From the IMG/VR virus record IMGVR_UViG_3300036790_000802, positions 1 through 34,882 of that record: 34,882 nt of DNA. The stretch is one strand, 5' to 3'. Below, one piece after another: positions 1-5,308 of this stretch. The notes below the pieces were generated by a model. The model saw nothing but the letters and a program-made list of their open reading frames with translations. It was not told the DNA's origin and made no database searches. Every line of letters starts with the position of its first letter. Within the stretch, counting starts at the first letter, position 1. The stretch comes from a virus. Both the position numbers and the translations under genes were made by a program.

Positions 1-1062
1 ATGCTCACCATTTATCGGCGGCATCGCGCGAAATGCAAAAGCTCGGCCAGAAAGGCAAAGTGTTTCTGCCCGATCTGGACGCAAGGGGTTCTGCGTGGCG
101 AGACGATTCGGAAGTCGCTCGATCTGACGAATTGGGAAGCCGCGAACAAGCTAGTAAGGGACTGGGAGATCCACGGGCAAGCGATGGTCGTGAGTGTGTC
201 CGACGCGCTCGACCGCTGGTATAAGGACTGCGAGGCACGGAATCTTTCGTCAGAATCTTTGCGAAAATACAAACGCCTTAAGGGATCTCTCATCGCGATT
301 TGGGGAGAAATACCGCTCCGGTCGCTTTCCGTGGATGACGTGCGGAAGATGCGTGAGGGGTGGACATTTTCCCCTGGAACGACGGCGAAACAGTTGGAAC
401 TCGTACGGGCATTTTTCTCTTTTTGCTTAACCTCGGGTTGGATCGAAAAAAATCCGGCCACAGCCGTCCGCGCCCCGCAAGCAAAAGTCGTCCCGACACT
501 TCCCTACTCTGATGCGGAATGGAAGGACATTCTGACCGCGCTTGATATGTACGGGGAGATCCATTATCAGTCCCCTCCTCGCATCCGGAAGCAGCTCCGC
601 GCTCTATTTCTGCTCATGCGATTTTCGGGGCTCCGCATTTCTGATGCGGTCGGCCTGGCGCGCGACCGGATCGATTCATCGGGGAATTTGTTTATTTACC
701 AGGCGAAGACGGGGCATCCCGTATCAGTTCCCCTCCCTAAATTAGTGATCAATGCGCTCGGGGAAATTGATGAGCACGGGCGATATTTTTTCTGGAATCG
801 TGAAGGGACATTGAAAACAGCGACAACTGATTGGTCATCGAAAATGAGGAAGGTATTTTTACTAGCCGGGATTCCGGATGGCCATTCACACCGGCTACGG
901 GATAGCTTTAGCGTCGATTTACTTTCAAAAGGAGTTCCATTGCAGACGGTTTCGATCCTGCTGGGCCATCGAAGTATCAAAACCACTGAGCGGCACTATG
1001 CCCCGTTTGTAAAGGCATCGCAGGACGCGCTCGATGCTGCCGTGAAGGGAACGTGGCAATGA
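1..1062 (+). CDS. int: Tyrosine recombinase / phage integrase
   Basis: Site-specific recombinase that would integrate and excise the phage genome by strand exchange through a 3'-phosphotyrosine intermediate. The 353-residue protein is full length. A Cys-rich N-terminus (C12, C21, C23) precedes a SAM-like core-binding domain (about 65-150) and a catalytic domain (about 165-345). The catalytic set is complete: R212 in LRISD, K236 in QAKTGHP, H297 and R300 in HRLRDS, H323 in LLGHRS, and nucleophile Y333 in RHYAPF. The ATG is the first base of the window, so the promoter and ribosome binding site are not visible, but the MLTIYRRH start looks like the natural N-terminus of this family. I associate the Cys-rich MLTIYRRH-type start with Acidobacteriota integrases; this is from memory and unverified. 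The downstream gene overlaps it by an ATGA, so the two are co-translated. Confidence 0.95.
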   Translation: MLTIYRRHRAKCKSSARKAKCFCPIWTQGVLRGETIRKSLDLTNWEAANKLVRDWEIHGQAMVVSVSDALDRWYKDCEARNLSSESLRKYKRLKGSLIAIWGEIPLRSLSVDDVRKMREGWTFSPGTTAKQLELVRAFFSFCLTSGWIEKNPATAVRAPQAKVVPTLPYSDAEWKDILTALDMYGEIHYQSPPRIRKQLRALFLLMRFSGLRISDAVGLARDRIDSSGNLFIYQAKTGHPVSVPLPKLVINALGEIDEHGRYFFWNREGTLKTATTDWSSKMRKVFLLAGIPDGHSHRLRDSFSVDLLSKGVPLQTVSILLGHRSIKTTERHYAPFVKASQDALDAAVKGTWQ

Positions 1063-1489: not shown

Positions 1490-1829
1490 CGAAATAGAGC
1501 TGATGAAATCCTGTTGCGTCCATGCTTGCACGCTCCTTGTGGCGAAGAACCTTTGACGATCATTTCGGATGGGTTTTGCGATCGCAGTCAGTTCACGGTC
1601 CTGATGCGGCAACGGTCGCCAATTGCCATCCTTGCTCGTACTGCTTTACCGGCAATTCTCTGAGTGATGGGTAGGGTTTGCGCTTCTCACCCTCAACGTC
1701 CTTCACGGACTCAGCCTTTATTTATAGACGCGCTCGGACTCGTCATCCCATCATTCAAAGAACTGCTTGAAGTCCAGCGGGCGATCAAAGGAGAAGTCCA
1801 CTCCGGCGCAAGTAATTGGAGGAAACAAA

Positions 1830-1900
1830 AACAGTGTCCTTAGCACGAAACCCAACCTTGTGAGTAAAATTTCGCGCCGAGGACACTGTTCACAAGGTTG
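1830..1900. ncRNA. Interlocked inverted repeats, pseudoknot-like element
   Basis: Two perfect inverted repeats are interleaved. Arm A, AACAGTGTCCT (1830-1840), pairs with AGGACACTGTT (1880-1890). Arm B, CAACCTTGTG (1853-1862), lies inside the A loop and pairs with CACAAGGTTG (1891-1900), which directly abuts A'. A third inner pair, CGAAA (1846-1850) with TTTCG (1870-1874), can stack on stem A. An 11-bp and a 10-bp stem in A-B-A'-B' order is the topology of an H-type pseudoknot if transcribed, or of a compound protein-binding or recombination site if it acts as DNA. The strand of transcription is unknown. A match to a known RNA family was not recognised. Confidence 0.5.
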
Positions 1901-1950
1901 TCCCGCTAAGTCCATCTCAGCATGAAGTGTTTATAGAAAAGCGCAAGCCG

Positions 1951-1964
1951 CCCTGGGGATAAGT
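1951..1964. repeat. Copy 1 of dispersed repeat CCCTGGGGATAAGT
   Basis: This 14-mer is identical to 33281-33294, and its last 12 bases are identical to 25097-25108. A weaker neighbour, TGTGGGGATCA, follows at 1973-1983. The reverse complement begins ACTTATCCCCA, whose core TTATCCCCA differs from the DnaA box TTATCCACA at one base. Confidence 0.6.
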
Positions 1965-3238: not shown

Positions 3239-5308
3239 GTGTCGAAAATGGCGAAAGAGCGCTCTTCTGCTCCGTTCCAGCTCCCAAAAGACGCAATCAA
3301 GAGGGCTAGCATCGGTCAGTCTTTTGCAGAATACGATCTGATTCGAGCTCATCCAGCTCTCTTTGTGGAAACCCCTGCGATGCGCGCGGCCGTTGATGTG
3401 AATCGTCCAAAATGCTTTTTCATCGGGCGGCGTGGCACAGGGAAGACGGCGGTGACGTTTTACTTGCAGTCGCGTAACTTTAAGAATGCAATACCCCTGA
3501 TTCCTCAGATGCTCTCGGCTGCTGACCAATACATTCCGAACGAGTGGTCGCCCGATGTCCATCAACAGCCATTTAAGACGCTCGTATGCAGCTTCAAGCG
3601 AGCAATTCTTGATGAGATTCTTTTTGTTTGGTTTAAGCAAGGGCTATATCGGCCGCACGCATCAAGCGTCATTACACGCGAAAAGAATGAAATTGAACAG
3701 TTCGACTTCGATTTAAGACTTCTCAACTTTATCTCTGAAGGCTTCGATGCATTGAATTCGCAGCCGAAAGAGTGGCTGAAATTTGTAGCTAAGCCGAAGC
3801 AAATCGCGGATGAGATGATGGTTGAAGCGACGACTCAGCGGCACAATTTCGTGGTCCTTATTGATAGGTTGGACGATTCTTGGAATGGTTCAGACAAGGC
3901 AGTCGTGCTGGTGATGGCGCTCATGCATGCATGTCTTGAGCTCAACGCCACGGTGACTTGCGCTCAACCGCTTGTGTTTGTCAGAGAGAATGTTTTCGAT
4001 CGAGTGAGGAGTCTCGATAGGGAATCGGCCCGTCTGGAGACGGCTGTCGTCTCGTTGGAATGGACACGTGAAATGCTTCGAGAATTCATCGAGCGGAGGC
4101 TGAATCGAAATCTCGTCGCGAAGCCTGCTCTTGGTGGACCGACCTGGAATGCGTTCTTTGAGCAACCGCAAAGTGGAAGCACAGAAGATCTAGTTTTTGG
4201 GTATTGCCAGTACCGGCCGCGCGACGTATTGATTTACGTTGCAAATGCGCTTGAGTCCGCCCAAGCACACCTTCGGACGAGAATAACGTTAGAGGATCTC
4301 GAGGTCGCGCGCAAGAAGTTCTCGGAAGGTCGCCTGAAGGATCTTTCGGATGAATACGCCGACAATTATCCGCGGCTTGGCATTATTCTTTCCAAATTTT
4401 ACGGTCTTGGGACCGAGTACACTGTTGCGGCTATCGATGATTTTTCGAAGAAACTATTAGTAGATGAAGAAGTAAAGGATGCCTGTCAAAGCTGGATCTA
4501 TAACTATAGCTCACCGGAATTGTTGATTAAGCTGCTTTACAATCTCGGCTTTGTTGGGATTAAGAATGATGGGACAGTCGCATTCAAATCGAGCGAATCA
4601 ACTCTCGCTATGATGCCGACCCTGACCGCCAAAAGCACACTTGTCATTCATCCAACTTATGTGAACGCTCTTAGCCTACAAGATGTTTTGGTTAATAGCA
4701 TGGGAGAGGAGGTACAACTCAGACAGTCAGGAATTGTTGCCGAACTCCCCGAATCAACTACTCTCAGGGTCTATAACGCCAAAATCGCGGCATTACAGAC
4801 GAAACTTGCCAATCTTACGTGTGGTGACGCAGAGTCGGCGGAATATGAAAAGATCGTGCAGGATCTGCTAAAACTGTGCTTTCATAAAGCGCTTACAAAC
4901 GTTCAGCCGAAGGTGCGAGACGTTTCGAGCAAGGTGATTCGTGATTTGATCGCAGCGAATTACTCCAGTATTCCCTTTTGGGAGATGCTGAGGGCAAAGT
5001 ATGGTGCTACGCAAGTGATCTTTGAATGCAAGAACTATATTGATTTGTCGGCTGATGATTTCCATCAAGTTGCTTACTACATGAATGAGGCAATTGGCCG
5101 GGCGGCATTCCTGGTCCATCGAGGCCCCGGAGAGCTCAAGAAAGGGTACCTTGATCACATACGGCGCATTCATTCCGATAAGCATGGCATCGTGCTTCTG
5201 TTGGGAGAAAGGGATTTGGAGGTTTTCCTGCGACAGGCTTTAAACGGCAAGAATAGCGAAGCGCACCTTCAAGATCTCTTCGATCGGACGGTCAGAGAGA
5301 TCTCGTAG
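3239..5308 (+). CDS. P-loop ATPase fused to a PD-(D/E)XK nuclease; candidate defence protein
   Basis: A 689-residue two-domain protein. The N-terminal ATPase has a Walker A motif GRRGTGKT (63-70), a Walker B-like VVLIDRLDD (205-213), and a later YRPRDVLIYVANA segment (about 325-337) of the type I recall from Sll1717-family P-loop ATPases. A middle region (about 370-480) looks like winged-helix or helical linker. The C-terminus (about 540-689) carries a restriction-endonuclease-like core: R560-D561, then IFECKNY with E596 and K598, then FHQVAYY (Q609). This is the D-x(n)-ExK pattern of DNA-cutting nucleases. Position between the integrase/att region and the lysis end, lone plus-strand orientation and AT-richer sequence than the virion genes suggest accessory cargo, probably anti-phage. 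GTG at 3239 or ATG at 3248 could be the start; neither has a strong ribosome binding site. No partner gene is visible. Confidence 0.8.
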   Translation: MSKMAKERSSAPFQLPKDAIKRASIGQSFAEYDLIRAHPALFVETPAMRAAVDVNRPKCFFIGRRGTGKTAVTFYLQSRNFKNAIPLIPQMLSAADQYIPNEWSPDVHQQPFKTLVCSFKRAILDEILFVWFKQGLYRPHASSVITREKNEIEQFDFDLRLLNFISEGFDALNSQPKEWLKFVAKPKQIADEMMVEATTQRHNFVVLIDRLDDSWNGSDKAVVLVMALMHACLELNATVTCAQPLVFVRENVFDRVRSLDRESARLETAVVSLEWTREMLREFIERRLNRNLVAKPALGGPTWNAFFEQPQSGSTEDLVFGYCQYRPRDVLIYVANALESAQAHLRTRITLEDLEVARKKFSEGRLKDLSDEYADNYPRLGIILSKFYGLGTEYTVAAIDDFSKKLLVDEEVKDACQSWIYNYSSPELLIKLLYNLGFVGIKNDGTVAFKSSESTLAMMPTLTAKSTLVIHPTYVNALSLQDVLVNSMGEEVQLRQSGIVAELPESTTLRVYNAKIAALQTKLANLTCGDAESAEYEKIVQDLLKLCFHKALTNVQPKVRDVSSKVIRDLIAANYSSIPFWEMLRAKYGATQVIFECKNYIDLSADDFHQVAYYMNEAIGRAAFLVHRGPGELKKGYLDHIRRIHSDKHGIVLLLGERDLEVFLRQALNGKNSEAHLQDLFDRTVREIS

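Follow-up and report, generated by a model that had tools for sequence, protein, structure and literature searches.

Interlocked repeats near a phage integrase gene encode a candidate small RNA that may adopt two competing folds

The viral DNA analyzed here, a stretch of 34,882 nucleotides that is referred to throughout as the window (IMG/VR record IMGVR_UViG_3300036790_000802), begins with a tyrosine integrase gene on the plus strand (1..1062; Pfam Phage_integrase, E 4.8e-19), and a gene at 3239-5308, probably a prophage-borne defence gene, encodes a protein of 689 aa that matches PADLOC PDC-M36A weakly. Between them lie two perfect inverted repeats of 11 bp, stem A (1830-1840/1880-1890) and stem B (1853-1863/1890-1900), which interlock in the order A-B-A′-B′. 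A preliminary description had reported two such perfect interlocked repeats, correctly except that arm B had been given as 10 bp. Nowhere else in the whole window do two perfect stems, each of at least 10 bp, cross one another within 100 nt, and no such pair arose in 300 dinucleotide shuffles of the window (0/300), in which single stems of at least 10 bp occurred at a mean of 2.7 per shuffle. With an inner pair, stem A extends to 1830-1850/1870-1890 (21 nt, 86% paired), and a third helix, absent from the preliminary description, joins CTTAGC at 1839-1844 to GCTAAG at 1905-1910. A transposon end or other repeated element was considered and rejected, as the element has no second copy in the window record and its arm patterns do not occur in the viral contigs.

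Comparison of the two strands indicated which of them would be transcribed. The predicted folding energy was −40.7 kcal/mol on the minus strand (z −6.2) versus −29.4 kcal/mol on the plus strand (z −4.6), and imperfect positions in the inner stem become G-U pairs if the minus strand is read and A-C if the plus strand is read. The inner pair noted earlier is real, and its minus-strand version is longer and includes the G-U wobbles. Model R1 matched the window at 1819-1916 with 89.8 bits on the minus strand versus 23.6 bits on the plus strand, and models from two of the three types described below (types 1 and 3) gave members 62 to 108 bits on the minus (RNA-sense) strand and at most 27 bits on the opposite strand. 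The RNA strand is taken to be the minus strand because the wobbles are G-U there only, because of the model scores, and because a T-rich tract follows segment A and a promoter precedes the element. HDV-like ribozymes have a similar helix order; a plus-strand ribozyme of this kind was rejected because the wobbles, the T tract, and the promoter are all on the minus strand. The earlier suggestion of a frameshift or readthrough element was not borne out, as no conserved open reading frame runs through the element. A coding leader was likewise rejected because the 54-aa frame found in the window is missing in the close relative L043.

The interlocked repeats are therefore read as encoding a candidate small structured RNA of about 95 bases on the minus strand (1821..1916), which matches model R1 and belongs to type 1 of a group of 16 members. 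From 5′ to 3′ its segments would be C′, B′, A′, I′, B, I, C, and A, followed by a U tract. C′ (CTTAGC in the RNA, 1905..1910) lies in the 5′ part and pairs with C (GCTAAG, 1839..1844), the last bases of which are the first bases of A. B′ (CAACCTTGTGA, 1890..1900) is the partner of B (TCACAAGGTTG, 1853..1863), and A′ (AACAGTGTCCT, 1880..1890) is the partner of A (AGGACACTGTT, 1830..1840). The inner stem is formed by I′ (approximately 1867..1878) and I (approximately 1842..1851), the latter overlapping C. A T-rich tract (TTTTTGTTTCC, 1821..1831) follows A and would complete an intrinsic terminator in which A′ and A are the 5′ and 3′ strands. Read in the RNA sense, every member has a stable stem with a T-rich tract after it (in the window, TTTTTGTTT; in L040, only TTTATC), and a generic terminator scan misses the element because of its loop limit of 8. 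At gathering score, Rfam returned only tRNAs from the window and member loci and no family matching the element, and at E up to 10 it gave only subthreshold matches, such as SAM-Chlorobi on L041 (21.5 bits versus a cutoff of 35).

Upstream of the RNA, a DnaA-box-like 9-mer (TTATCCCCA, 1954..1962, minus strand) precedes a putative promoter (1919..1946, minus strand) with a −35 element TTGCGC (1946-1941), a 16-nt spacer, and a −10 element CATGCT (1924-1919), from which the RNA would be expected to start near 1912, approximately. The arrangement defines a promoter class: a box TTRTCCMCA (also given as TTATCCMCA), 1 to 11 nt, a −35 element, exactly 16 nt, and a −10 element. When the fetched loci were scanned with the pattern TT[ATG]TCC[CA]CA, 16 of the 35 distinct boxes were followed by −35- and −10-like hexamers at the exact 16-nt spacing, compared with about 0.2 expected in shuffles at that spacing, and none of the 35 had spacings of 12 to 15 or 17 to 21 nt. 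The window holds five such sites (33508+, 33292−, 25106−, 8896−, and 1962−), of which 8896− lies upstream of an M23 endolysin-like gene and 1962− is the putative promoter of the RNA, and the class also occurs upstream of genes in relatives. The −10 element is weak or displaced in L043, L030, L041, and L045, the box is reversed in L037 and L053, and L048 has an ordinary promoter instead (TTGACT-N17-TACAAT). From these sequences, the RNA appears to share a phage-wide promoter class.

A search with the window integrase yielded two relatives, L006 (56% identity) and L007 (40% identity), in which the A-B-A′-B′ order recurs about 0.5 kb and about 1.2 kb beyond the integrase, respectively, with arms unrelated to those of the window (GCAAAACCCCC/GGGGGTTTTGC with TTCAAAAG/CTTTTGAA in L006; AACCGTTGTT/AACAACGGTT with CCTTGCAA/TTGCAAGG in L007). 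Further relatives came from an alignment-based search, which brought in contigs of acidobacterial genomes along with 11 viral contigs. The element was near the integrase in 11 of 11 viral contigs with a related integrase, as well as in L030, a prophage of an Acidobacterium genome assembly. A sequence pattern added L048, L050, and L053, for a total of 16 members, nearly all metagenomic and with the window included, whose arms differ yet stay complementary. They fall into type 1 (window, L043, L044, and L039), type 2 (L040, L038, and L036), and type 3 (L041, L030, L045, L037, L042, L046, L050, L053, and L048). Pattern scans for further type 1 or type 2 members returned only known members and unrelated matches, and no match to the element was found among named phages and plasmids, nor did model R2 match anything around the integrase of Tunturiibacter phage Tunturi_4. 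Strictly filtered, nonexhaustive searches of Acidobacteriota genomes matched only the L030 genome among 396 with model R2 and none with model R1, the latter with no positive control, and a chromosomal RNA of Acidobacteriota was rejected on these results. The element is rare in the sampled Acidobacteriota genomes and therefore seems phage-borne, traveling with these phages, whose host is inferred from the relatives to be Acidobacteriota.

Comparison of the members also bears on whether the repeats act as DNA, as in the earlier proposal of a double protein-binding site, or as a recombination site, tied to integration. The element lies 0.45 to 3.7 kb from the integrase in members that have both in sequence, as such a site might. 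Its arm sequences are nevertheless fully divergent, the promoter is strand specific, and the G-U wobbles, confined to the minus strand, and the strand-specific T tract indicate RNA. Moreover, in the four members with a tRNA just before the integrase (L044, L045, L038, and L030), the tRNA is on the far side of the integrase from the element. An integrase or att site was rejected, there being no fixed sequence and the element being on the wrong side of the integrase. We consider a DNA element extremely improbable.

Other noncoding features were observed around the element. An inverted motif pair, CTTTGAATGATGG and CCATCACTCAGAG, flanks a variable stretch of about 75 to 130 nt in the window (1652-1671/1747-1766) and in L043 (1573/1673) and occurs twice, with matching changes, in L039 (4269/4397 and 4473/4623); it may be a further RNA structure or else a miniature mobile element. 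Noncoding DNA at 1438-1660 and 2539-2986 of the window matches L043 at up to about 99% identity, compared with only 42% between the two integrases, a pattern of mosaic exchange with strong noncoding conservation. Inside a longer L043 match, 31 nt at 2854-2884 recur at about 90% identity in L030 and L045 and include a short AAAAGA/TCTTTT inverted repeat. At about 2912-2940, TTCGCAGGTTCGACCCTTGCCTGTCCCA resembles a tRNA 3′ end (T arm and acceptor) and is possibly an attachment-site remnant. In L007, an apparent second copy of the integrase 3′ end (...ESAVKGTR, stop) at about 2120-2180, about 0.6 kb after the integrase, is perhaps a trace of recombination.

Covariation in the arms was assessed within types. 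For the four type 1 sequences, 14 of the 30 pairs of A′/A, I′/I, and B′/B contained double changes, and 94% of cells were paired, compared with 35 to 47% after sliding. In type 3, C′/C and a 5′ hairpin were 92% paired with 14 double-change cells versus 4.9 in shuffles, and the terminator hairpin was 93% paired with 21 versus 7.4, the alignment (A10) having been fitted to the latter fold; both helix sets exceeded all 500 shuffles in double-change cells. By hand alignment, as many as five pair types occur at a single position of B′/B. The window and L043, the flanks of which are 87 to 92% identical, differ by seven double substitutions in A and B combined, as counted from the alignment. Relatives thus keep the A-B-A′-B′ order through compensatory changes, which gives good support to the regulatory RNA that the preliminary description had listed as one option and answers the covariance check it had proposed, as the arms change yet stay complementary. 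The covariation of C′/C and B′/B also bears on whether the element is solely a terminator insulating leftward prophage transcription from the convergent integrase. A long stem followed by a T tract near the integrase 3′ end would suit that role, for which C′/C, B′/B, and a dedicated promoter 70 nt upstream would all be superfluous. We regard an insulating terminator alone as very unlikely.

Certain bases covary with two partners. The end of C and the start of A share bases, GUC in most type 3 members, that can pair with C′ or with A′, and where GUC becomes GCC, both partners change: column 130 forms A-U six times and G-C three times with column 20 and likewise with column 55. In type 3, the B region can pair with B′ or with the segment that precedes C, and the two pairings change in concert. 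Because each of segments B and C has two pairing partners, two alternative folds fit these data better than one. We define fold P as C′/C plus B′/B, with side hairpins in type 3, in which A′ and A are not paired together and B′ and C′ engage B and C, respectively. We define fold T as the terminator hairpin, A′/A plus the inner stem I′/I, in which B lies in the loop.

The preliminary description had instead proposed a static H-type pseudoknot in which A′/A and B′/B form at once. The arm order suits a pseudoknot, and A′/A and B′/B could coexist, most easily in type 3, where the linker between A′ and B is short or absent and a long one precedes A. In type 1, however, geometry suggests that the long A′I′/IA hairpin leaves no B′-A′ linker with which B′/B could reach the loop, and so the helices are read as alternatives there. 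Moreover, the second partners of B and C also covary. We consider a static pseudoknot improbable, and the interlocking is better read, from sequence comparison, as two competing folds.

Structure prediction was consistent with competing folds. Folded without A, the RNA was predicted to adopt fold P in nearly all type 1 and type 3 members (in L037, a longer 5′ hairpin replaces C′/C), and fold P could thus form first because the 5′ part alone suffices. For full-length RNA, predicted energies of T and P, with pseudoknots and protein ignored, differ by −10.7 to +1.2 kcal/mol: fold T was better by 10.7 kcal/mol in the window, preferred by 1.6 to 7.9 kcal/mol in most other members, and balanced with fold P in L039, L030, and L045.

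The most probable use of two such folds is an attenuator-type transcription switch, in which the terminator is opposed by a competing fold. Leftward, minus-strand transcription would start at a promoter belonging to the phage's own class, with fold P forming as the 5′ part of the RNA emerges. Segment A, once made, would either convert P into T and stop the polymerase or fail to do so. If P held, RNA polymerase would pass; if T formed, transcription would stop and a short RNA of about 95 to 130 nt would be released. A factor that tips the balance between P and T may be involved. Conservation, strand, helix covariation, shared bases, the T tract, and the promoter class can be read from the DNA, and we infer that the cell makes use of both folds and that what is regulated is readthrough. 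An attenuator should have a second fold that uses some of the terminator's bases and is able to form first, and one was found. It should also have, downstream on the same strand, a gene under its control; no downstream gene is common to the members, leaving nothing conserved for readthrough to turn on, and in several phages the convergent integrase is the next gene after the RNA. In addition, the strong preference for T in the window suggests that its RNA may simply terminate. We give the switch about an even chance of being correct and propose that the element works like an attenuator, and because it has no fixed regulated gene downstream, membership of the attenuators is not claimed.

The main rival to a switch is a constitutive, trans-acting phage small RNA that always ends at the T tract, the second fold being a folding intermediate; suggested roles are superinfection immunity, host takeover, and an RNA or protein sponge. 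Its own promoter and terminator and the variable downstream genes are consistent with such an RNA, as is the neighborhood. Around the element, at the genome end that carries the integrase, the gene content varies from phage to phage (neighbors scanned included Mrr and GmrSD-type restriction endonucleases, AIPR/AbiU, DndB/DpdB-like, TIR effector, OLD/Gabija-like, and HNH proteins), and the RNA stays constant while neighboring defence genes are swapped. Seven members have a common upstream protein gene on the same strand. On the other hand, no antisense target of the RNA above chance was found in the phage genome, and a plain small RNA needs no base sharing conserved with both partners. We consider a constitutive small RNA possible but rather unlikely.

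The switch reading can be extended, more speculatively, to a new family of phage RNA switches that work by base pairing only, with no conserved ligand core, and that hold the terminator 5′ strand in the loop of a competing hairpin. Driven by a promoter of the phage's own class, such switches would control leftward transcription into the defence-gene and integrase end, and the fast-diverging arms would mean that each phage's switch answers only its own kind. We regard the extension as doubtful. The element nonetheless appears to belong to a previously undescribed family of RNAs found in temperate phages of the Acidobacteriota, a phylum that is prominent in soil and whose phages have received little study. 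It stays in a hotspot where prophages exchange defence genes. Since the arms evolve quickly and yet both folds persist, the family provides a good test case from nature for RNA switches that are recognized through covariation with two partners.

Known RNA classes resemble the element in part. In metabolite riboswitches a conserved core of unpaired ligand-binding bases and a regulated gene to match are expected, and here only 6 of 174 columns are invariant over all 13 sequences and there is no common downstream gene. RNA partners of defence proteins (AbiF, retron, or type III toxin-antitoxin) accompany a constant cognate protein gene; neighbors of the element differ among members, and neither AbiF nor a reverse transcriptase was seen beside the RNA among the neighbors scanned. 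Acido-1 and Acido-Lenti-1 (RF01686 and RF01687; PMC2864571) are likewise structured noncoding RNAs of Acidobacteria, and their Rfam models matched no tested member locus. Like the element, the c4 antisense RNA (RF01695) is small, structured, and phage-encoded, and it has short complementary segments. The CI/SeqA RNA of phage P4 and IsrK of Gifsy-1, the latter with short terminated and long readthrough forms, are more loosely alike, being prophage RNAs with internal complementary segments that are tied to transcription termination (PMC4825925). The element differs from c4, P4 CI, and IsrK in having no Rfam match and no separate complementary target in the same genome, its arms pairing within the RNA, and by these tests it does not belong to the c4/CI family. 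In the ON/OFF leaders of RepA_N plasmids (pSA564, pSK1, and pSK41), antisense RNA1 tips a switch built of complementary segments and an intrinsic terminator (PMC8129170). The element is phage-borne and unrelated to these leaders in sequence, with no downstream replication gene or ribosome-binding site and no antisense promoter found at it, but the likeness to the leader switches is one of design: complementary segments give mutually exclusive folds, one of which is a rho-independent terminator (PMC8129170).
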